A stretch of DNA of 32,341 bases from a virus, in the IMG/VR virus record IMGVR_UViG_3300030943_000112, positions 1 through 32,341 of that record. One strand, written 5' to 3'. Of the stretch, positions 15,295 through 31,657 are shown one piece after another; the stretch's first letter is position 1; each line of letters starts with the position of its first letter. The position numbers and the translations under genes were made by a program. The notes under the pieces are model-generated. The model made no database searches and was not told the origin of the DNA. It was given only the letters and a program-made list of their open reading frames with translations.

Positions 15295-16013
15295 TATCTA
15301 CTTGACCTCCACTTAGGAATAATTATGTTTGGTTCATCTGTTTCTCTTATTGTAAAGTAGTCCTGCATTTTTTTATCTTCTAATTGTTTCTCAACACTTA
15401 ATGGTTGTAGGTTATTAAGTCCTAATGTAAAAGCACAATCATAAGCAGAACTAATTACAAAACCTCTATGAAGTAAAGGAGATACACCTGGATTTTTAGT
15501 AGTATCAGTTGCTACGAAGTAACTAGGAGTTCTTTGAAAATAAAACTTAAGTCCATTAGTAACACTTGATACTGGTTTAGGATATAACCTAACAACATTG
15601 TCTGCAATTTTATCATAGTATAAAGGATAACCTGCTGTTTTCATAAACTCATCAAGAGCAATACCAGTTAAATTTGATTGGTCAATAGGTATAAGTTGTC
15701 TATAGAGTCCAGTAGAATCCATTATGTCAATACGAGTTAAATTAAGAATTGAATTACCTTGCTCATCTATAAGGAAAGAATAATCTGTCTGGTTAGAAAT
15801 TAAGTTTGTTGTTCCAATAGGAAGTTTTGTGTGGTTTGTATCATCCCATTGGAAACGTCTATCAGCACCAATAGCATAGCCTGCTACTGTGTCTAAATAA
15901 TTATTACAAGAATTAACAATCTTTTGTGTAGACCATTGTGTAGAATCAACGCGAGCAATATCTCGCACTTGTTCTACTATACCATTTTTATCTGTAGTAT
16001 TACTAAAGTTCAT
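15294..16013 (-). CDS. Putative head-tail adaptor (P22 gp4-like by size and position)
   Basis: 239 residues. An N-terminal helical part (VEQVRDIARVDSTQWSTQKI, SCNNYLDTVAGYAIGA) leads to a beta-rich middle with FYFQRTP. A helical C-terminus (LLHRGFVISSAYDCAFTLGL, KQLEDKKMQDYF) ends in a basic tail. This pattern, including a 'LHRGFVISSAYDCA' helix, is common in phage adaptor and DUF-type connector proteins that ring the portal. It lies after the capsid genes and before the fibre genes. Homology to P22 gp4 is inferred from layout, not a specific motif. Confidence 0.55.
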   Translation of the reverse strand: MNFSNTTDKNGIVEQVRDIARVDSTQWSTQKIVNSCNNYLDTVAGYAIGADRRFQWDDTNHTKLPIGTTNLISNQTDYSFLIDEQGNSILNLTRIDIMDSTGLYRQLIPIDQSNLTGIALDEFMKTAGYPLYYDKIADNVVRLYPKPVSSVTNGLKFYFQRTPSYFVATDTTKNPGVSPLLHRGFVISSAYDCAFTLGLNNLQPLSVEKQLEDKKMQDYFTIRETDEPNIIIPKWRSSR

Positions 16014-16537
16014 TACTTTTTAAAGTTAGTTTTAAATTCATCCAAATGATTAAAGATAGTAGCGACTATTTCACCACCTTCAACATTTATTGTTTCATAA
16101 TCATCATACATATCTTCAAGGAATGGTGTCATAAGTTTACGAGTAAGAGGAATTATCTTATCGTTATATTTCTGTGCTTTAATAGCAATCTTATTTCTTT
16201 CTTCTTCTGCATCTTCCTTATTCTTCTTTAGATTCTCATACTTCTCATGTAGTGTATGGTCTACTTTTTCAGACATACGCTTATAGATTTCTTCTTTGAT
16301 AGCATTCATATCATCAATACATTTCTGAACTATATCAGAAATAGCCTTCTCTTTATCAGTAAGGTCATTAATATCAACTTTCTTTTCTTCTGCTTGGACA
16401 AGTTTATCAACTTCTTCCATTTCTTTCTCAATTTCTTCTATCTTAGTTGATATTTCTCTACCAACACTTATTAAATCACCTTTTTCAGTAAGGAGTTTAA
16501 GTAATTTTTTATCTTCTAATTTTATAGTTTTTGTCAT
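16013..16537 (-). CDS. Charged coiled-coil virion-module protein
   Basis: 174 residues, rich in Lys and Glu throughout, nearly all helix (ISTKIEEIEKEMEEVDKLVQ, EKYENLKKNKEDAEEERNKI). No family recognised. It has its own leftward promoter (16580-16552) with the -10 ending 14 bases before the ATG, so it may be made at a different level from the capsid genes. The stop overlaps the adaptor start. A scaffold-like, chaperone or assembly-factor role is possible but not shown. Confidence 0.6.
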   Translation of the reverse strand: MTKTIKLEDKKLLKLLTEKGDLISVGREISTKIEEIEKEMEEVDKLVQAEEKKVDINDLTDKEKAISDIVQKCIDDMNAIKEEIYKRMSEKVDHTLHEKYENLKKNKEDAEEERNKIAIKAQKYNDKIIPLTRKLMTPFLEDMYDDYETINVEGGEIVATIFNHLDEFKTNFKK

Positions 16538-16551
16538 AGATTATGTTATTT

Positions 16552-16580
16552 ATTATAGCACAGTTATTATTTATTGTCAA
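16552..16580 (-). promoter_or_regulatory. Internal leftward promoter for the tail-gene block
   Basis: On the minus strand, TTGACA (16580-16575), a 17-base spacer, TATAAT (16557-16552), then 14 bases to the ATG at 16537. The -35 lies inside the end of the glycosyltransferase gene. The expected leader is about seven bases, the longest of the late promoters here. Confidence 0.8.
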
Positions 16581-23807: not shown

Positions 23808-23836
23808 TTGACAAGAATTTAATTATGTGCTATACT
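23808..23836 (+). promoter_or_regulatory. Rightward promoter of structured RNA 1
   Basis: TTGACA (23808-23813), a 17-base spacer and TATACT (23831-23836). Six bases later, at 23843, the ACCT arm of the first hairpin begins. No start codon lies near, so the product is probably a non-coding RNA. The promoter diverges from the terminase promoter 39 bases away. Confidence 0.8.
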
Positions 23837-23842
23837 AAGTGT

Positions 23843-24045
23843 ACCTGAATAAGGTGAGCAATAGTTTGGACATAAAAGGCATTGAATAACTTTTATCTTA
23901 GTCCAGGATAAAGGTTGCTCAATGCCTTTCAATGTATAAATAGTTAAATAGCATTACTTTAAATTGGATGGCTCTAAATTGGGTAACAAACTTAACGTAC
24001 AAGAAAAGCGAATTTATTTCGGCTCACTCTTATGTTAAGGGAGAT
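23843..24045 (+). ncRNA. Pseudoknotted structured RNA 1 (same family as 30760-31040)
   Basis: Helices read from the sequence: P0 ACCT/AGGT (23843-23846/23852-23855); P1 GAGCAA/TTGCTC (23856-23861/23915-23920); P3 CTTTTATC/GATAAAGG (23890-23897/23907-23914); and a pseudoknot of AAAGGCATT (23875-23883) with AATGCCTTT (23921-23929), extendable by overlap with P1. A second long-range pairing GGAC/GTCC (23868-23871/23901-23904) is possible. Downstream are ACTTTAAATTGGA (23956-23968) and GAATTTATTTC (24010-24020), the latter within a stem CTTAAC/GTTAAG (23991-23996/24034-24039). All have counterparts in the same order in RNA 2. The 3' end is unknown; a pyrimidine-rich tract follows from about 24048. 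Function unknown. Confidence 0.7.
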
Positions 24046-24162
24046 AATCTTTTTCTTAGGGTCTTTTTCTTTTTCTCTTTCTTCGCTGGCTTGGTTTCTC
24101 TAGTTTCGTTTTAAGAAGGACTAAGTTACATGAGCGAGGTGTAATCACCGAGCGATACTCTT

Positions 24163-24586
24163 GTATACCATAGTTATGATTAACTATTATAGTTCTAGTG
24201 TCTAGTAATTGTGATACATATTATAGATAAACTACTAAGATAAAAGTATCAATAGCCAATCAATAATAAACCTACCCCACCCCTTGCCTATACCCCCCTT
24301 GTCTATGGTTGGCATAGCTGTGGGAAACAATACAAAGGCAAGCGTGTTGATAGTTATAACAGCTACCCAATAGACATGCATTGCATTGATAATCAACACT
24401 ATATCAATACATATCTACTTTACTCAACTAAAGTAAACAAATGTATACTAAATATATCATAACTGTGTATAACTATGTTGACAAAGTGTGTATTATGTGT
24501 TGTATTATAAGTCAAGTCTTGCTTTCTTATTCCATTATGATATAGTAAGGTATTTTGCCACTATTTACAAGTATACCATAGTTGTG
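24163..24586. repeat. AT-rich repeat region, candidate origin or operator array
   Basis: The 16-base GTATACCATAGTTATG at 24163-24178 recurs at 24571-24586 with one change. Related CATAGTTATG-like sites occur at 24350-24361 (GATAGTTATAAC), 24458-24467 and 24469-24478 (inverted), and in the palindrome ATAGTTA-TGAT-TAACTAT (24170-24187). Between 24046 and 24680 I see no convincing gene. A polypyrimidine tract (24048-24085), a hairpin GGTG-TAAT-CACC (about 24138-24149) and a C-rich block are also present. Repeats in both orientations beside an AT-rich stretch, between early and late modules, would suit a replication origin or repressor array. No initiator gene is visible in the window. Confidence 0.45.
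24271..24342. other. C-rich block and nested inverted repeats
   Basis: 24271-24298 contains CCCC, CCCC and CCCCCC runs, so the opposite strand has three long G-tracts plus GG pairs and may form a G-quadruplex, surprising in such AT-rich DNA. CTTGCCT (24283-24289) pairs with AGGCAAG (24336-24342), enclosing CTATG-GTTGG-CATAG (24303-24317). It may belong to the origin-like region or to the tail of structured RNA 1. Confidence 0.4.
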
Positions 24587-24680
24587 TTGTAATGTAAAAT
24601 AGTGTTGTATAATGTTTAGATAGTAGTATACTTATATTGTAGGTAAATACATTATCAATAAAAAGCCTATCAATAGAAAT

Positions 24681-24800
24681 ATGAAACTAAGCAAAGCACG
24701 TCAATTATATGTAAGAAGTTATAAGGGAAAGCAGTATACAAGTTATAACAGAGTTATGTTAAATGACTTGATTATTAGTTTAAAGTTACAAAATAAATAA
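24681..24800 (+). CDS. Tiny basic hypothetical protein
   Basis: 39 residues (starts MKLSKARQLYVRSYKGKQYT), Lys/Arg/Tyr-rich, with a helical second half. No family recognised. It follows the repeat region, is one base from the next small gene, and has an A-rich leader (AATAGAAAT before ATG) like other genes here. A poor promoter (TTGACA at 24478-24483 with a weak -10 near 24503) lies 170 bases upstream. Confidence 0.45.
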   Translation: MKLSKARQLYVRSYKGKQYTSYNRVMLNDLIISLKLQNK

Positions 24801-24801
24801 T

Positions 24802-24975
24802 ATGAAAATAAATAAAAGTACAATTACCGTATCTATTCCAAATTATAAGTATAATAGATATGACAATAAACCAAGTGAAGTTTATGCGGAATCGTTACAA
24901 ATATTATTAGATGGTTATAATCAATATGGTCGTAACATTCCACAAGATGAAGAATATCAAAAGTATCAGAAATAA
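24802..24975 (+). CDS. Small hypothetical protein
   Basis: 57 residues. A strand-like start (STITVSIPNY) leads to a tyrosine/asparagine-rich segment and a helix (SEVYAESLQILLDGYNQYG). No family recognised. It follows the 39-residue gene by one base with an AATAAT leader. Between 24976 and 25110, where it converges with the leftward cassette, I see no clear terminator. Confidence 0.5.
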   Translation: MKINKSTITVSIPNYKYNRYDNKPSEVYAESLQILLDGYNQYGRNIPQDEEYQKYQK

Positions 24976-25110
24976 AATGCTTTTACATTTTGAAAATCTA
25001 TATCTAAAACCAATTAATCCAGATTTTGAAATGACCAAAAATCAACACCCCCATCTACAACTCTCAAAACAATGTATTTAGTGTCGGAAATTTTGGTTTG
25101 AGATTATTTT

Positions 25111-25191
25111 TTATCCCCCACTATTAACAATAGCAATATAAATTACACTAGGTATAACTATAATAGCTAGTGCAACTAAGAAGTTATGCAT
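25111..25191 (-). CDS. 26-residue single-span membrane peptide
   Basis: Begins MHNFLVALAIIVIPSVIYIA and ends in a short polar tail. One hydrophobic helix covers almost the whole peptide. Its ATG directly adjoins the stop of the methyltransferase gene (25191/25192), which argues for translational coupling as last gene of the leftward cassette. It could anchor or regulate a membrane-associated glycosylation step, or be a small holin-like peptide; neither is shown. Confidence 0.45.
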   Translation of the reverse strand: MHNFLVALAIIVIPSVIYIAIVNSGG

Positions 25192-25755
25192 TTATACTAT
25201 GAATGTTAAGTTTGTACCTGAAGTTGTAACCCATTCCATCTTTGGAAACATAGACTCTATATCATTAGTATCATAAGTAGCATAATGATAGTGGACATCT
25301 TCAAGTTTAGTTTTTAAATATGCCATATCATTATCCATTATTATTTTAGAAAGTTCACCATTAGGAATTATAACTATCACTTTATCAGCGATGGTTTTTA
25401 TTTTGTCTATATACTCTTTTGGATTCTCTAAATGTTCCATTACTTGCGATAGTAGGGCAAAGTCATAGTGTTTCTTTATTTCTGGTATATCACCAACTAA
25501 AAACTCTTTATTCCACCTAGTCTTACATCTATTAATAGCTACTTCAGACCAATCTATACCAGTATAATTATCAAAGAATTGACTTGCTTCACCCTCTCCA
25601 CAACCTATATCAATAATAGTCTTATCTCCTACAAATGGAACTATATGTCTAAATGTATTTAATTCTTCTTCATTATTCTTATGCCCAAATTCTGTGTAGA
25701 ACTTCTCCCACCAATTTTTATCATAGCGACTTATATCATCTGTAATTATTTTCAT
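25192..25755 (-). CDS. Class I SAM-dependent methyltransferase
   Basis: 187 residues. Motif I IIDIGCGEGEAS at about 47-57 binds SAM; a second acidic strand end (NYTGIDWSEVAINRC) and GDIPEIKKHYDFALLSQVME follow, the standard order of class I (Methyltransf_11/25-like) enzymes. The acceptor-binding region is short, so the substrate may be a small molecule or sugar. It overlaps the GT2 gene by four bases. Joint action on one glycan, such as methylating a transferred sugar to cap it, is inference from this coupling. Confidence 0.8.
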   Translation of the reverse strand: MKIITDDISRYDKNWWEKFYTEFGHKNNEEELNTFRHIVPFVGDKTIIDIGCGEGEASQFFDNYTGIDWSEVAINRCKTRWNKEFLVGDIPEIKKHYDFALLSQVMEHLENPKEYIDKIKTIADKVIVIIPNGELSKIIMDNDMAYLKTKLEDVHYHYATYDTNDIESMFPKMEWVTTSGTNLTFIV

Positions 25756-26312
25756 TTTGTTTGTATTATTTCCATTAATGTTTTTAAATTTCTTGTTGCT
25801 TCTTTATTTCTTGAATTAGGTCTATCTGATATGTAAACTAATATCTCATTTACTATACCGACCTTATAGCCATTTCTTATTGCTTGTAAATTCCAATCAT
25901 AGTCTTCTAATCCTCCAAGTGTTTCGTCAAACTTATATTTATTCCAAATCTCTTTCTTAAATAGAAAACAATTTAACATCTGATTACCTATTTCAAATCC
26001 AGATGTATGTGGGGTAAAAGTAACTCCATTTATATCTCCCATTGTTGCCACCATATCATAGTCTTTCATTAATGGTAATGTCTTTTCTAAAAAGTCAGGG
26101 TAGAGTATATCATCTGCATCAAGACATAAACAATACTCACCTCTTGCTCTTTCTAATCCTTTATTCCTTCCTTCCGAAACATCATTATCATACTGTTGAA
26201 TTATTAATTCATAATCTTTATAAGTTTGTCTTAACACACTCTTAATAGCACCAGGAAGTAAATCCCAGTATTCATTTTCTTGTAACTTGATAGGAATAAT
26301 TATACTAATCAT
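25752..26312 (-). CDS. GT2 (GT-A fold) glycosyltransferase
   Basis: 186 residues, short for the family. It starts MISIIIPIKLQENEYW, then PGAIKSVLRQTYKDYELIIQ, SEGRNKGLERARGEY and CLCLDADD with the DxD-type metal/nucleotide-sugar site at about 65-67. GLEDYDWNLQAIRNG supplies the later acidic/catalytic region. No transmembrane segment is seen. It is second gene of the leftward cassette, 38 bases after the zinc-ribbon gene with a strong hairpin in that gap. The target is unknown: virion protein, host envelope glycan and DNA base are all possible. Confidence 0.8.
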   Translation of the reverse strand: MISIIIPIKLQENEYWDLLPGAIKSVLRQTYKDYELIIQQYDNDVSEGRNKGLERARGEYCLCLDADDILYPDFLEKTLPLMKDYDMVATMGDINGVTFTPHTSGFEIGNQMLNCFLFKKEIWNKYKFDETLGGLEDYDWNLQAIRNGYKVGIVNEILVYISDRPNSRNKEATRNLKTLMEIIQTK

Positions 26313-26319
26313 TTTGTTT

Positions 26320-26349
26320 ATAAGGGAGGTGTTTTATTTCCTCCCTTAT
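26320..26349. promoter_or_regulatory. Perfect 10-bp hairpin between zinc-ribbon and GT2 genes
   Basis: ATAAGGGAGG (26320-26329), 10-base loop, CCTCCCTTAT (26340-26349). In the leftward RNA it ends seven bases before the GT2 ATG and directly follows the zinc-ribbon stop, with no U-tract. Read rightward it is followed by GTTAATATTTTTTT and would act as an intrinsic terminator, protecting the early promoter downstream from read-through. Both uses are possible. Confidence 0.6.
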
Positions 26350-26350
26350 G

Positions 26351-26503
26351 TTAATATTTTTTTGTGAATTTATGTCCACAAATACATACGAGTTTGAATG
26401 TTATTTTCTTAACAGGAAACTCATAAAATTTTCTCCAAATAACAAGACATTTTTCTTCATGACATTTAGGACAATTTTCCCTTATATTATATACCTTTTT
26501 CAT
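26351..26503 (-). CDS. Small zinc-ribbon protein
   Basis: 50 residues (begins MKKVYNIRENCPKCHEEKCL) with CPKC near residue 11, another Cys at 19 and CICGH near 40-44. Two knuckles about 30 residues apart make one treble-clef or zinc-ribbon fold. No family recognised; small proteins like this bind nucleic acids or proteins such as RNA polymerase. It is first gene of the leftward GT2/methyltransferase cassette and has a consensus promoter with a leader of about 20 bases. Confidence 0.65.
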   Translation of the reverse strand: MKKVYNIRENCPKCHEEKCLVIWRKFYEFPVKKITFKLVCICGHKFTKKY

Positions 26504-26530
26504 AATAAATATGTTTAATAATTCTAATAC

Positions 26531-26559
26531 AGTATAGCATATTTGTAATACTTTGTCAA
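26531..26559 (-). promoter_or_regulatory. Leftward promoter for the GT2/methyltransferase cassette
   Basis: On the minus strand, TTGACA (26559-26554), a 17-base spacer, TATACT (26536-26531), 27 bases from the zinc-ribbon ATG. Its -35 lies two bases from the -35 of the rightward early promoter. Confidence 0.8.
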
Positions 26560-26561
26560 GC

Positions 26562-26590
26562 TTGACAATTTAATTTTAATAGAATACACT
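26562..26590 (+). promoter_or_regulatory. Rightward early promoter (leaderless)
   Basis: TTGACA (26562-26567), a 17-base spacer, TACACT (26585-26590), then six bases to ATG at 26597. Together with the leftward promoter it forms the palindrome TGTCAA-GC-TTGACA (26554-26567), so one bound polymerase or repressor should block both. Confidence 0.8.
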
Positions 26591-26596
26591 TTAACT

Positions 26597-26812
26597 ATGA
26601 TACAAGATAACGAGGTATTCAATCGTATTATTAGAACAGAGCCAATGACATACTTGCAAGCATTACAATTATGTTATAGACTTTTAAAAGAAAAAGTAGT
26701 GGAGTTAGATAAGATTGATATTCATGGACAAGGTCTATCTATGGATTATCAACAAGCAATATTATTACTAACTAATTTATATCTGGTAAAACCAGAAGAT
26801 ATAATAAGATGA
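26597..26812 (+). CDS. Early-operon hypothetical protein
   Basis: 71 residues, helical, starting MIQDNEVFNRIIRTEPMTYL and containing YRLLKEKVVELDKID and YQQAILLLTNLYLV. No family recognised. Its ATG is exactly six bases past a -10 box, so its mRNA should be leaderless, and as first gene of a long operon of small proteins it probably sets the operon's expression. Its stop overlaps the next start by four bases. Confidence 0.6.
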   Translation: MIQDNEVFNRIIRTEPMTYLQALQLCYRLLKEKVVELDKIDIHGQGLSMDYQQAILLLTNLYLVKPEDIIR

Positions 26813-27063
26813 AGAAAGAGATTAAAAAAAAGTTTCCTAAAAAAGCAAAATTAATTACGGATGGAGGTTTCTATAGAATAATTAAAATAGATGGATTTGT
26901 ACCAAAGTATACATATCCATTACTAAAGAAAATTAGTTTATGTACTCCTGAAACAAATGTAACAGATATGATGATTAGTTTTACTTGTGAGTTTAGTTTT
27001 AGTAGAGTCTTTGGGGGTTATGCTGAATATAGACAGTATAATGTAACCAGTATAGTAAAATAA
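26809..27063 (+). CDS. Early-operon hypothetical protein
   Basis: 84 residues: a basic N-terminus (MKKEIKKKFPKKAKLI), then an alternating beta-like pattern (GGFYRIIKIDGFVPKYTYPL, MMISFTCEFSFSRVFGGYAE). It looks like a small beta-rich basic protein, which would suit nucleic-acid or protein binding. No family recognised. It is coupled upstream by an ATGA overlap and one base separates it from the next gene. Confidence 0.55.
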   Translation: MKKEIKKKFPKKAKLITDGGFYRIIKIDGFVPKYTYPLLKKISLCTPETNVTDMMISFTCEFSFSRVFGGYAEYRQYNVTSIVK

Positions 27064-27064
27064 T

Positions 27065-27268
27065 ATGAAAAAAGAAAAATGTTGTGAATCATATAATGGA
27101 ACATTAGATATAACAAACAGTTGTATCTTCTGTAAGAGTTATATTCCAAATGAAGAAGATAAAAGAGAAGCATATTGTGAATGGTTAGAAGAACTACAAT
27201 TAGATAATGCAAATAGAGATGAAGAAAATTATCAATCATTTATAGATGGTGGTCCAGCCCACTTTTAA
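27065..27268 (+). CDS. Small Cys-containing acidic protein
   Basis: 67 residues with CC near the start, then SCIFCKSYIP, a possible single zinc knuckle with CC..CxxC spacing of about 15, followed by an acidic helical tail (NEEDKREAYCEWLEELQLDN). No family recognised. It lies in the early operon between a basic beta-rich protein and an acidic one. Confidence 0.55.
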   Translation: MKKEKCCESYNGTLDITNSCIFCKSYIPNEEDKREAYCEWLEELQLDNANRDEENYQSFIDGGPAHF

Positions 27269-27277
27269 AATAAAAAT

Positions 27278-27523
27278 ATGATTCAAGGAAAAGAAGAAAT
27301 GGATTTAATAGAATTATTGAATAAACAAATACTAGAAGAAGATATGAGAATAGGTTTCGCAAATTTAGATTTACAAGGAATAAAGAATTGGGCAGAAGAT
27401 ATCAGTGGTGAATGGAATGGTGATAATCCTGGAAGTGCCGAAGATAGAAGTCACCAAGCAACAGATATAATGGAGAAGGTTGATGAGTTGATATTATTAA
27501 TTAATGGAATGGAAAATTTATGA
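27278..27523 (+). CDS. Early-operon acidic hypothetical protein
   Basis: 81 residues, acidic and helical (MDLIELLNKQILEEDMRIGF, VDELILLINGMENL) with a central WAEDISGEWNGDNPGSAEDR loop. I do not recognise a family. A second in-frame ATG seven codons in is an alternative start. The stop overlaps the next start as ATGA. Small acidic early proteins often bind host factors, but no specific evidence exists here. Confidence 0.55.
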   Translation: MIQGKEEMDLIELLNKQILEEDMRIGFANLDLQGIKNWAEDISGEWNGDNPGSAEDRSHQATDIMEKVDELILLINGMENL

Positions 27524-27696
27524 AAACAACAAGGACACCTCTTAAAGAGGTTGAAGCTAGGTTATGGAGAAATGGTTATCATAAACGTGAATGGGGTTGC
27601 GAAATAAGTTTAGGTAGTGTAGTATTAGGATATGGGGTTGCAATCTTTCTAGTCAAGGGATTGCACCAATTAACAATTTATAAGATAATAAAATGA
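27520..27696 (+). CDS. Small protein with one membrane-like segment
   Basis: 58 residues. A basic N-terminal half (EARLWRNGYHKREWG) precedes a hydrophobic stretch of about 16 residues (LGSVVLGYGVAIFLVKGL), then LTIYKIIK. Start and stop both overlap neighbours as ATGA (27520-27523, 27693-27696), strong support for translation although it is short. A single-pass or amphipathic membrane peptide is likely; function unknown. Confidence 0.55.
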   Translation: MKTTRTPLKEVEARLWRNGYHKREWGCEISLGSVVLGYGVAIFLVKGLHQLTIYKIIK

Positions 27697-27935
27697 GTAA
27701 AATGTCAGAATTAGATATAGAAAAACAAAATGAAGTAGTAGACCTTTACAAAGAGCATGATACACACCAAGATGAGTGGCTCAAAAACTGCTCACTATGT
27801 TATGAGGATAAGATTGCCACATTAGCAAAGTATAAGAAGATGAATGGTTATAACATTAAGAAAGAGTTTGGAGAGATATTAGAACATGAGGATGAAATGT
27901 CGGCTCATCCTGAACCAGATTATTGGGGTAATTAA
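27693..27935 (+). CDS. Small acidic CxxC protein
   Basis: 80 residues. After an acidic helix (SELDIEKQNEVVDLYKEHDT) there is WLKNCSLCYEDK, one CxxC, and the end is rich in E/D/H (FGEILEHEDEMSAHPEPDYW). Cys and His together could bind one zinc. No family recognised. It is joined to the previous gene by an ATGA overlap. Confidence 0.55.
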   Translation: MSKMSELDIEKQNEVVDLYKEHDTHQDEWLKNCSLCYEDKIATLAKYKKMNGYNIKKEFGEILEHEDEMSAHPEPDYWGN

Positions 27936-27940
27936 ATAAA

Positions 27941-28087
27941 ATGAATAAAACAATAGAATTAAATGAACAGCAAGTTGAAATGATTAAGGCGTTTATGCAA
28001 GATGTAATAGAGGAAAGTGGTGGTTTAGAGTGGTCTATGACAAGCAAGTCGATTGCAAGTCAAATTATTAATAAATTAGAAGAATAA
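27941..28087 (+). CDS. 48-residue helical hypothetical protein
   Basis: Starts MNKTIELNEQQVEMIKAFMQ, then a Ser/Thr-rich turn and a final helix (SIASQIINKLEE). Two-helix layout with acidic bias; no family recognised. It fills the gap between 27935 and 28090 with five and two bases to spare, and its leader TAAATAAA is like those of neighbours. Confidence 0.5.
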   Translation: MNKTIELNEQQVEMIKAFMQDVIEESGGLEWSMTSKSIASQIINKLEE

Positions 28088-28089
28088 TT

Positions 28090-28590
28090 ATGAAAAGAAT
28101 TAAAGTGTATCATATTGTGTTGTTTGTGTTAGCATTACTAGCAGTTGCTTACTTTGTAGGAGGTAAATATGGCTCTACAATCCAATATAAGCAGGTAGAG
28201 AAGGAAATAATACTAGATAACCTAGTTAGTAAGGTAAATGAGCTTAAAGGTGGCTTAATGAGTGAATTAAAGGCATGTGAGAGTGGAGGTGTAAGTGAAG
28301 ATAAGGCATTAATCACATTTGACCCACATCCAACAAATAAGAAAGTTCAAATTCCATCTTTGGGAAATTATCAATTTAAAGTATCAACAGTTCAGTTTTA
28401 TTATAAGAAGTTTTATGGTAAAGAAATAACAAATAAGGAAGCTGTATTGATTGCATTAAGTGATGAGAAAGCAGGAGAATTAGCAAGTGATGTAATCTTT
28501 AGAGATGGGTCTTTAAATAATTGGTACAACTGTACAAAAGCACATGGGTTGCAAAATAAACTTGATATTATAAATTTACTAATTAAATAA
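28090..28590 (+). CDS. Membrane-anchored lysozyme/transglycosylase-like protein
   Basis: 166 residues. Residues 1-27 are a signal anchor (KR, then YHIVLFVLALLAVAYFVGG). Residues 58-70 read MSELKACESGGVSE, with E64 where SLT-type transglycosylases carry the catalytic Glu before S-G-G. GNYQFKVSTVQFYYKKFYGK follows, matching the 'G-YQF---T' core, then a helical segment and NNWYNCTKAHG, the usual 'W--C' ending. It is therefore probably an exported, wall-active lysozyme-like protein. In an early-type operon rather than the late module it may serve entry, wall remodelling or exclusion rather than lysis. An inactive wall-binding relative is possible. Confidence 0.65.
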   Translation: MKRIKVYHIVLFVLALLAVAYFVGGKYGSTIQYKQVEKEIILDNLVSKVNELKGGLMSELKACESGGVSEDKALITFDPHPTNKKVQIPSLGNYQFKVSTVQFYYKKFYGKEITNKEAVLIALSDEKAGELASDVIFRDGSLNNWYNCTKAHGLQNKLDIINLLIK

Positions 28591-28594
28591 TTAT

Positions 28595-28921
28595 ATGAAA
28601 AAAATACAATGTTTTCGTCATGGTGAAATTTGCTTAAAGAAAATAAGTAAATTGCCTAAGGGTTTAAAGGTTAGTGGTAGTAAATGTATCATGCAAGGTT
28701 CACACAGTAATTCACACACAATAGATAATGGAAAATTATACTTTATTAAAAGTGGTTCAGAAGGAACTTATGTATTTGGTTATTTGGTCGCCCAAAATAC
28801 ATCATTGTTACACCCCGAACATTCTCCAAAAGTAGGACAAGCAAAACTACCTAATGGAATTTATCAATTATTGAAACAACAGGAATACACACCATCTGGT
28901 TTGATACCTGTTCAAGACTAA
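28595..28921 (+). CDS. Conserved phage hypothetical (HTIDNG...HPEHSPKVG...YTPSGL)
   Basis: 108 residues, beta-rich: CFRHGEICLKKISKLPKGLK, GSHSNSHTIDNGKLYFI, YVFGYLVAQNTSLLHPEH and PNGIYQLLKQQEYTPSG. I recall a widespread phage family with this order (HGE-LL...PKGLK...SH-H...LLHPEHG...LP-G-Y-L--Q-EYTP-G). The conserved His and Glu suggest a small cupin-like beta barrel, but its function is unknown to me. It lies four bases after the lysozyme-like gene, in the same operon. Confidence 0.6.
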   Translation: MKKIQCFRHGEICLKKISKLPKGLKVSGSKCIMQGSHSNSHTIDNGKLYFIKSGSEGTYVFGYLVAQNTSLLHPEHSPKVGQAKLPNGIYQLLKQQEYTPSGLIPVQD

Positions 28922-28954
28922 AACAAAACAAATTATTAATTAATTTTAAACTTT

Positions 28955-30088
28955 ATGATAGATAAAAAACTTGGTTATGATAAAAAGACACAAGCACTTA
29001 TAGATAGGATGTGTCATTATGTAGAGAGAGAAGATTATGTATTAAATAAGAAGGTTGCGGAGGAAAAAATATTACAAACTTATGATATTTTTGGATTAGT
29101 TAGACCTAAAAAGATAGTATGGTGTAAAGACCCATTTAATAAAAGATTTATGGAGTCAGCATGGTCAGCAGGGTCAGCAAGGTCAGCAAGGTCAGCATGG
29201 TCAGCATGGTCAGCAGGGTCAGCAGGGTCAGCAAGGTCAGCAGGGTCAGCAAGGTCAGCAAGGTCAGCATGGTCAGCAGGGTCAGCAGGGTCAGCATGGT
29301 CAGCAGGGTCAGCAAGGTCAGCAAGGTCAGCAGGGTCAGCATGGTCAGCAGGGTCAGCAAGGTCAGCAAGGTCAGCAGGGTCAGCAAGGTCAGCATGGTC
29401 AGCAGGGTCAGCAAGGTCAGCATGGTCAGTAGATAATTTTTATTGGGCAGGATTAGATTATGATTTTGATTATTTTGTAATGGAATACGAATATTGTTTA
29501 AATCCAAGTAATAATAAACCAACTAAAAATGATAGAATCTATTTACAATATTCTACTCTACTTTTAGAAGCATTAGAAGCTGGTTTGGGATTAAGAGTTG
29601 AATGGGAAGATACTCTGTATTTAGTTCCTATTGCATTAGTTAAAATAGATGAACTTAATAGATTTCATTCTACTAAAGAATCAGCAATTAAGTGGAAGGG
29701 TGGTAAGGAATTTTATTATCTACATGGAGGTAATATTGAAAAGAAGTGGTGGAATAAAATAGTTAATGATAAATTTAAGGCAAGTGAAATATTTGCTATA
29801 GATAATCATGAACATAGAAGAATCGCCTATGAGATGATGGATAAGACAAAGATGAAATCATTAAAAGATTATAAAGTTATTGATGAAGTTAGTGATGATG
29901 GTTATGGCAATAAAATGAAAATAATATCTTTCACAGTTAAAAATATTGAAGAACCATTAAAATATCTTAATTGTTTTTGTCCAACCACTAAGAGAGAATA
30001 TTTTATTGGAACTGATAAAGATATTTGTTGGGAAGCAAAGAAATCATCCTTTGGTCTAAGAGATGAAGAATTTATTAAAGAATGGTAA
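28955..30088 (+). CDS. DUF6745-like protein with SA(W/G/R) tandem repeats
   Basis: 377 residues. Residues 1-65 are helical (YDKKTQALIDRMCHYVERED). Residues 68-157 are 30 triplets S-A-W/G/R, encoded by a 9-base tandem repeat. The remainder carries LLLEALEAGLGLRVEWEDTL, SAIKWKGGKEFYYLHGG, KASEIFAIDNHEHRRIAYEM and a beta C-terminus, matching the DUF6745 pattern of a W-G-----Y-L-G--V strand pair then 'N-E-RR---E'. DUF6745 function is not known to me. The repeat may form a glycine/alanine-rich helical or extended spacer; phage relatives often carry similar SA-rich repeats. Length change by recombination would keep the frame. Confidence 0.65.
   Translation: MIDKKLGYDKKTQALIDRMCHYVEREDYVLNKKVAEEKILQTYDIFGLVRPKKIVWCKDPFNKRFMESAWSAGSARSARSAWSAWSAGSAGSARSAGSARSARSAWSAGSAGSAWSAGSARSARSAGSAWSAGSARSARSAGSARSAWSAGSARSAWSVDNFYWAGLDYDFDYFVMEYEYCLNPSNNKPTKNDRIYLQYSTLLLEALEAGLGLRVEWEDTLYLVPIALVKIDELNRFHSTKESAIKWKGGKEFYYLHGGNIEKKWWNKIVNDKFKASEIFAIDNHEHRRIAYEMMDKTKMKSLKDYKVIDEVSDDGYGNKMKIISFTVKNIEEPLKYLNCFCPTTKREYFIGTDKDICWEAKKSSFGLRDEEFIKEW
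29156..29425 (+). repeat. 30-unit 9-bp tandem repeat TCAGCANGG
   Basis: Thirty uninterrupted copies of TCAGCA-N-GG, where N is T, G or A and never C. The changing base is the first codon position, so the third residue of each unit is Trp, Gly or Arg while Ser-Ala is constant. By my count W, G and R occur 9, 10 and 11 times, in no simple order. GC content is far above the flanks. Because 9 is a multiple of 3 and no frame creates a stop, other frames are also open as a side effect. Confidence 0.95.
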
Positions 30089-30097
30089 TTAAAATTT

Positions 30098-30298
30098 ATG
30101 AGAAATAATTTACAGAAAGGGCTTTGCCCAAAGTGTGAAGGATTCCTTGCACAAGATAAACTTCATCATTTAGTATTTTGTAAGGATTGTGATTTTAGAA
30201 TCGATGCCGATGATTATCAGGAAGAATTAGATAATGCAAAAGATGATTATAGATTTAGAGATTACAATGACAACTTAAAAGATTTAAATTCCTTATAA
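30098..30298 (+). CDS. Small zinc-ribbon protein
   Basis: 66 residues. CPKCEGFLAQDKLHHLVFCK then CKDC give a CxxC-x17-CxxC zinc ribbon in the first half; the second half is acidic and helical (DADDYQEELDNAKDDYRFRD). Such ribbons with acidic tails can bind polymerase or nucleic acid. No specific family recognised. It lies in the early operon before another Cys-rich protein. Confidence 0.6.
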   Translation: MRNNLQKGLCPKCEGFLAQDKLHHLVFCKDCDFRIDADDYQEELDNAKDDYRFRDYNDNLKDLNSL

Positions 30299-30300
30299 CT

Positions 30301-30675
30301 ATGAAAAAAAACCCAATTAAAAAAGAAATTTATTGGGGATTAGAAGAACTACCAATTCCAAAGCGATGCGATAACGAACAATGTAGATTACTTATTCCCA
30401 ATACAGGTAGTTTTGTACAGAGAGTATTAGATGGTAAAAAATTAGTATTCTGTGATGAATGGTGTGCAGACCAACAATGTTACAAAAAAAGAAAAGTCCA
30501 TGATAGAGTTTGTAAAAGTTGTGGTGGTCAAACAGAGGAATATATGAGATACACAACAAAAGGACAATTATATGGTCATGGAAGTTTTAGAAAATATTGC
30601 TCCACTTGTAGACCATATCGTAGAGGTAAAATTTTAGAAAATTTAATTGAACTTAAAAAAAGTATTGATAAATAA
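30301..30675 (+). CDS. Cys-rich multi-zinc protein
   Basis: 124 residues with CDNEQC, FCDEWCADQQC, VCKSCGG and YCSTCRPYRRG, so two or three treble-clef or ribbon zinc sites. The pattern of a strand, C----C, GK-LVFCD--CA and a CKSCG---...YCS-C ending resembles FCS/HNH-adjacent zinc modules, but I see no catalytic His-Asn-His. It is the last gene of the early operon; 49 bases without a clear terminator separate it from the promoter of structured RNA 2. Confidence 0.6.
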   Translation: MKKNPIKKEIYWGLEELPIPKRCDNEQCRLLIPNTGSFVQRVLDGKKLVFCDEWCADQQCYKKRKVHDRVCKSCGGQTEEYMRYTTKGQLYGHGSFRKYCSTCRPYRRGKILENLIELKKSIDK

Positions 30676-30724
30676 GGGTGAAAAAGGAAATGTTTTATCA
30701 AAGTGAAAGAATCGTGTTTGCCTA

Positions 30725-30753
30725 TTGACAAATAAATATGAATATGCTAAGAT
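30725..30753 (+). promoter_or_regulatory. Promoter of structured RNA 2
   Basis: TTGACA (30725-30730), a 17-base spacer and TAAGAT (30748-30753). Six bases later, at 30760, the ACCTA arm of the first hairpin starts, the same spacing as in RNA 1. Confidence 0.8.
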
Positions 30754-30759
30754 AGAAGT

Positions 30760-31040
30760 ACCTAGTAATAGGTGGCGAATCAAATAACTACTTCAATACA
30801 TTTTGAGTAGTTCACCAGAGAAATCTGGTGGATTCGTCAAAGTGTATTTTTGTTTTATAGTCTGGGGTTAAAACTAGAAGACTTTAAATGGACTAGTTCT
30901 CGTAAACCTTATGGCATGGAAAAATAGCCATCATAACTCAGGAAGGTAAAATAGATTTTCGGAATTTATTTCTTAGTTATGGGTTTATGTTCTCTTACTT
31001 TCTACAATTAAAACTGTGGGGGTAAGGGGGCGTATCTCCA
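30760..31040 (+). ncRNA. Pseudoknotted structured RNA 2 (same family as 23843-24045)
   Basis: P0 ACCTA-GTAA-TAGGT (30760-30773). P1 30774-30781 with 30831-30838, eight pairs including one G-U. P2 30786-30792 with 30806-30812, 13-base loop. P3 CACCAG/CTGGTG (30813-30818/30825-30830). The P2 loop (30795-30805) pairs with 30838-30848, up to 11 pairs, forming a pseudoknot. Downstream stems: AACTAG/CTAGTT (30872-30877/30893-30898), ATGGC/GCCAT (30911-30915/30927-30931), CATAACT/AGTTATG (30932-30938/30975-30981) enclosing a nine-pair AT hairpin with loop TTCGG. Blocks ACTTTAAATGGA (30881-30892) and GAATTTATTTC (30962-30972) recur in RNA 1. The transcript may continue into the next gene as its leader. 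It differs from a simple terminator or tRNA; I do not recognise a known class. Confidence 0.75.
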
Positions 31041-31400: not shown

Positions 31401-31429
31401 TTGACAAATAAATTAGAAAGGTATATAAT
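31401..31429 (+). promoter_or_regulatory. Promoter for helical RNA, tRNA-Pro and rtcB
   Basis: TTGACA (31401-31406), a 17-base spacer, TATAAT (31424-31429), a full consensus match. The predicted start is near 31436. No terminator is evident between it and rtcB, so one transcript probably carries all three. Confidence 0.85.
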
Positions 31430-31441
31430 AGGAATAGAAGT

Positions 31442-31537: not shown

Positions 31538-31608
31538 CAGGATAAAATGTTGTGGTGGCATCTGCTGTTTGGAACAGTAAAGGCTTAGTTCGATTCTAAG
31601 TATCCTGA
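31538..31608 (+). tRNA. tRNA-Pro (anticodon UGG)
   Basis: 71 bases. Acceptor CAGGATA/TATCCTG (31538-31544/31601-31607) with discriminator A31608. A short D-arm ATG/CAT (31547-31549/31559-31561) with a GG-containing loop. Anticodon stem TGCTG/CAGTA (31563-31567/31575-31579, one G-U) with loop TTTGGAA, anticodon TGG at 31570-31572. A four-base variable loop. T-arm CTTAG-TTCGATT-CTAAG (31584-31600) with consensus T-loop. C1-G72 and A73 fit a proline tRNA. CCA is not encoded and must be added. It lies between a helical RNA and rtcB on one predicted transcript. Confidence 0.85.
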
Positions 31609-31657
31609 CAATTTATAACTATTATAAAAATAAGTTTTATTAATTAATGTAATACAT

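Follow-up and report, generated by a model that had tools for sequence, protein, structure and literature searches.

Two RNAs, A and B, encoded in a 32,341-nt stretch of virus DNA (IMG/VR record IMGVR_UViG_3300030943_000112; hereafter the window), appear to possess the 5' domain typical of a class of leaders on phage mRNAs, which may act as kinetically ordered two-state translation switches, a model to which we give an even chance. The class is apparently widespread in uncultured phages and undescribed. Searches of the window and 11 family loci against Rfam release 15 yielded no match at the gathering score, the weak matches of A and B lying far below the cut-offs, and no description of such leaders was found in the open-access literature. 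The original prediction of an undescribed phage RNA class is upheld as to the existence of such a class, to which, judged by layout, A belongs as a strong member and B as a looser one, through a subtype that it shares with the phage locus L206.

Leaders of this class are built from two helices, S1 and S2, whose strands follow one another in the order S1a-S2a-loop(S1b)-S2b with almost no linkers, so that the two stems cross. Where the leaders are clearest, 12-30 bp make up the S2 hairpin and 7-14 nt its loop, and S1b forms the 3' part of this loop, ending 0-1 nt before S2b. In compact members S1 comprises 6-10 bp and the linkers measure 0-3 nt; the gap from S1a to S2a is mostly 0-3 nt and at most about 11 nt, and in most leaders 2-4 loop nucleotides, often ACT, stand ahead of S1b. 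The best -10 element is found 6-44 nt upstream of S1a, which places the predicted promoter before the whole element, and several members, as A and B, have a hairpin at +1, 6-7 nt past the -10. The sequences of S1 and S2 diverge fast between phages and can barely be aligned; the architecture is kept.

The promoter, hairpin, P1, adjoining strand and 3' words originally attributed to A and B were all found at or adjoining the stated positions, and in both RNAs 6 nt separate the -10 from the P0 hairpin. The parts are as follows.

23808-23836, + strand: promoter of RNA A, TTGACA-17-TATACT, read from the sequence (TTGACA 23808-23813, TATACT 23831-23836)
23843-23855, + strand: P0 hairpin of A, ACCT/AGGT, ACCTGAATAAGGT, at the predicted +1
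23856-23862, + strand: P1 5' strand of A, GAGCAAT (partner GTTGCTC, 23914-23920)
23866-23871, + strand: S1a of A, TTGGAC, inner early helix
23875-23897, + strand: S2a of A, 5' arm of a 23-bp hairpin
23901-23906, + strand: S1b of A, GTCCAG, 3' end of the S2 loop
23907-23929, + strand: S2b of A, 3' arm, including the P1 3' strand and the strand earlier taken for part of a pseudoknot
23956-24039, + strand: 3' blocks of A common to B (ACTTTAAATTGGA; GAATTTATTTC in CTTAAC/GTTAAG)
30725-30753, + strand: promoter of RNA B, TTGACA-17-TAAGAT, read from the sequence (TTGACA 30725-30730, TAAGAT 30748-30753)
30760-30773, + strand: P0 hairpin of B, ACCT/AGGT, ACCTAGTAATAGGT, at the predicted +1
30774-30781, + strand: S1a (P1 5' strand) of B
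30787-30811, + strand: P2 of B, ACTACT/AGTAGT, with S2a AATACATTTTGA (30795-30806) in its loop
30813-30830, + strand: P3 hairpin of B, CACCAGA/TCTGGTG
30831-30837, + strand: S1b (P1 3' strand) of B
30837-30848, + strand: S2b of B, directly after S1b
30881-30981, + strand: 3' blocks of B common to A

In A, AATGCCTTT after P1 pairs back into P1, an extra helix that, like S1, competes with S2. P1 of B starts at the base after P0 (GGCGAATC/GATTCGTC, one G-U pair), and TCAAAGTGTATT after it pairs with AATACATTTTGA in the P2 loop. Among promoter-hairpin-P1-strand matches in the window or in the 880 kb of DNA from related phages scanned with it, A and B had the top scores, the P1-plus-strand score having p values of about 0.012 and 0.013, respectively, against Markov shuffles. 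Read as a long hairpin, A scored 57.5 versus a shuffled maximum of 44; for B, whose loop is longer, the presence of S1 given S2 had p=0.05. Elsewhere in the window, a perfect TTGACA-17-TATAAT promoter at 16580 (- strand), upstream of the ORF at 16013-16537, has a short hairpin 6 nt past its -10, and a TTGACA/TATAAT promoter at about 31401-31430 stands ahead of a tRNA-Pro(TGG) gene (31538-31609). Genes of the window include those for a terminase, a major head protein, an endolysin, RusA and a polymerase-exonuclease; methyltransferase-like and glycosyltransferase-like genes at 25192-26312 (- strand) may serve host takeover or modification.

Beyond the common 5' domain, A and B share ACTTTAAAT(T)GGA (at 23956 and 30881) and GAATTTATTTC (at 24010 and 30962), the latter lying inside CTTAAC/GTTAAG and CATAACT/AGTTATG, respectively, and followed by GTTAxGGG. 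The two collinear words have p=0.008 and the longest common word p=0.034; the enclosing stems, with p=0.09 and 0.11, are at chance level. The view of A and B as paralogues of one family could accordingly be kept for the layout of the 5' domain, but the 3' domain is weakly above chance (p about 0.01-0.03, stems about 0.1), so full-length paralogy is not established, and, since what members have in common is architecture more than sequence, a single ancestral copy of A and B is not demonstrated. It is improbable that the two are free-standing small RNAs, forming a family of their own with an essential 3' domain. Such RNAs would fit the shared words in the same order and the lack of a sizeable ORF directly 3' of A, where there is just MYK-stop or a 48-aa ORF at +38, and of B, where a search for relatives of the following ORF found none, but would be hard to reconcile with chance-level 3' stems and with a 3' domain that occurs in no relative, the only other contigs containing it being L003 and L004 from two other metagenomes. 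Across the 1080-nt RNA A region these two show 100 percent identity with the window, which indicates the same phage in different samples; their terminase proteins are likewise 100 percent identical to that of the window. Contrary to the original reading, the element is elsewhere a leader placed directly ahead of genes and not an RNA standing by itself. As for the surroundings of the two RNAs, about 750 nt from A to the next gene (24045-24800) hold no convincing ORF and are AT-rich, with a C-rich tract near 24270-24300, and the region ahead of B includes a 377-aa ORF (28955-30088) with a long tandem SAWSAGSARSA-type repeat and no PHROG match, in repetitive DNA whose other frames are open too.

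Nucleotide similarity of cultured phages to the window was at chance level, and relatives of the window terminase (59-74 percent identity) had nothing similar in sequence to A or B. A pattern consisting of the promoter and the ACCT/AGGT hairpin gave mostly chance matches and one useful locus, L189 (the same as L206), which has a B-like layout with the hairpin, an adjoining P1, a P3 hairpin and a P2 hairpin whose loop pairs with the strand that follows P1, all 22 nt before a DnaD-like helicase-loader gene. The match has p=0.0013 alone but, with 119 trials allowed for, p is about 0.15, and it gains its weight from orthologous leaders that were discovered later: in other uncultured phages, relatives of this loader gene have leaders in the same place, with the same order of pairing strands and unrelated sequence. 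Firmicute prophage relatives are without such a leader, and none was found in six regions with HNH and helicase-loader genes of cultured phages. A generic scan for a promoter, P0 and a loose H-type descriptor was not specific (127 real versus 81 shuffled matches) and was rejected. The cleanest independent test was the last viral scan, which used the S1 motif alone (TTAGYCTTG...ACTNNCAAGRC) and left S2 unspecified. Of its 26 matches, 16 are without S2; automatic scoring detected S2 in nine, and inspection by eye added a tenth (L406). Each of these ten stands 5' of an ORF, and six of them are new loci (L405, L406, L410, the near-identical L415/L421, L419 and L420). In 295 genomes from the phylum to which a Bacilli MAG (locus L277) belongs, the same motif had one chance match, without S2. 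Relatives with the same layout were found, and the lack of relatives that had been named as telling against the original prediction did not come true.

With thresholds set after the first leaders were seen, and first-order Markov or mononucleotide shuffles as controls, about 45 matches in 20 phage records, the window and four loci exceeded a score of 45, the shuffled maximum being 44. An S1 score of at least 15 occurred in 20 of 156 strong hairpins, versus a mean of 1.55 (maximum 4) when upstream sequences were permuted, and S1 given S2 had p values of 0.0005-0.014 in most compact leaders taken singly. S2 pairs include 54 G-U versus 15 A-C under a detection that treats both alike, a sense-strand bias that points to an element acting as RNA and not as DNA. 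Compensatory changes were noted by eye in two HNH leaders of phage record G008, which align without gaps and differ in both S1 (C-G to G-C) and S2, and likewise in the DnaD leaders of G009 and G010.

Genes downstream of the leaders encode DnaD-like loaders, HNH endonucleases (HNH_3, NUMOD4), a YopX-like protein (by eye) and others. The distance from S2b to the start codon is 2-20 nt in most members, and HNH_3/NUMOD4 genes begin about 4-20 nt from S2b in several of them. An ORF starts within 35 nt in 24 of 34 matches scoring at least 50, versus 25 of 133 at scores of 33-44. A and B are exceptions, with no sizeable gene directly 3' of S2, and the window yielded no homologue of a helicase loader or HNH endonuclease. 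Shine-Dalgarno motifs are rare in these phages, preceding 0-24 percent of genes per record (G001-G029; GC 0.32-0.57) and 1 of 20 in the window, which implies that structure at the start codon should matter; a consensus Shine-Dalgarno sequence lies within the hairpin in 1 of 29 elements.

In an H-type pseudoknot both stems coexist, joined by linkers long enough for groove crossing. By the established geometry of pseudoknots, this structure was ruled out for compact members, in which linkers of 0-3 nt face an S1 of 6-10 bp and an S2 of 12-30 bp, so that no single molecule can contain S1 together with the full S2, and the element is a switch between two states, not a stable pseudoknot. What had been read as a pseudoknot in A and B is thus replaced by two exclusive folds, the partner strands belonging, as its two arms, to a long hairpin with which P1 is incompatible. 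Predicted folds follow the same order: for RNA ending after S1b, S1 has a probability of at least 0.88 in all 29 elements, and for full-length RNA S2 reaches 0.68-0.99 with S1 at about 0 in 28 of them, L068, in which S1 is preferred even at full length, being the exception; since the descriptor favours a strong S1 and S2, this switch is partly built in and is a matter of consistency, not proof. For A the predicted values are 0.98 for P1 and then 0.96 for S2, for L206 0.98 for S1 and then 0.85 for S2, and for B 0.98 for S1 and then 0.52 for S2 with S1 at 0.46, a balanced full-length fold.

We infer that transcription starts from the predicted promoter, that S1 is the ON and S2 the OFF state, and that no trans factor is needed. 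RNA polymerase would begin at P0 and make S1a, S2a and S1b in turn. S1 would form first, holding S2a in its loop, and S2b would come directly after, S2 forming only once S1 opens, given linkers of 0-3 nt. As long as S1 is held, the region 5' of the start codon would be single-stranded and ribosomes could load; once the more stable S2 has formed, it would sit within a ribosome's reach of the start codon and shut initiation. New transcripts, for example of HNH endonuclease or helicase-loader genes, would thus be translated in a short burst.

The same crossing helices could also serve a transcription attenuator, in which S2 is an intrinsic terminator and the early S1 keeps RNA polymerase going unless S2a is freed. 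At least five T in eight at the end of S2b in 9-10 of 26 members (e.g., G010 and G018), and T tracts after S2b in B and L206, would fit a terminator, but most compact members have no U tract (e.g., G008, G012, the G016 helicase-loader leader and G019 +4049), and far more members have S2b close to the start codon than have a U tract. We regard attenuation as rather unlikely; the predicted folds, the position of S2b near the start codon and the scarcity of Shine-Dalgarno sequences together favour the translation timer. Control in trans, with the S2 hairpin of one transcript pairing through its S1b loop with S1a of another and setting its fold, recalls the immunity of phage P4, where the CI RNA acts in a replication-operon leader with alternative pairings. 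The complementarity of S1a to an exposed loop, as well as the fast divergence of S1 and S2 within a kept architecture, would suit such control. However, whole-record scans revealed 2-3 copies in several phages, with S1 differing between copies in G019, G016, G003, G013 and G009, so these copies would not address each other, which suggests cis action and makes control in trans highly improbable. The leaders resemble that of P4 in their alternative pairings and in preceding replication genes, but for them a trans-acting RNA, or dependence on Rho or a terminator, would be conjecture.

Other known systems correspond to the proposed translation switch in part. In T-even phages, the homing endonuclease genes I-TevI, I-TevII, I-TevIII, segB and mobE have RBS-sequestering hairpins that block read-through transcripts, late transcripts starting inside the hairpin (PMC2988022). 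Many of the leaders found here likewise place a stable hairpin before an HNH endonuclease start; however, the promoter predicted for them precedes the complete element, an earlier second helix, which the T-even hairpins do not have, excludes the S2 hairpin, the genes extend beyond endonucleases, and Shine-Dalgarno sequences are almost lacking. The maturation-gene leader of MS2, in which a transient fold allows translation before the final cloverleaf (PMC6733600), parallels the change proposed here from ON, while the RNA is nascent, to OFF, once it has refolded, but it is a single cloverleaf leader of an RNA phage, whereas the present element is a modular one of DNA phages, found in many phages and before many genes, with exclusion of S1 and S2 via near-zero linkers. 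Type I toxin mRNAs such as aapA3 and hok have metastable structures whose transient hairpins block translation (PMC6733600); sequential folds during transcription govern ribosome access there as proposed here, but S1, the transient helix of the phage leaders, is predicted to leave the start region accessible.

In a broader reading, which we place a little below an even chance, these leaders would be sequence-independent RNA timers: portable elements in which an early helix topologically delays a hairpin that occludes the start codon, giving one translation window per transcript, and which would have spread among unrelated genes, notably those of mobile HNH endonucleases and helicase loaders, in phages of bacteria that hardly use Shine-Dalgarno sequences. 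If true, a common regulatory RNA of uncultured phages has been missed by sequence-based family searches because only its architecture is conserved. It would also provide a natural case of translation timed by co-transcriptional folding alone, and would account for gene regulation in phages and hosts without Shine-Dalgarno sequences.
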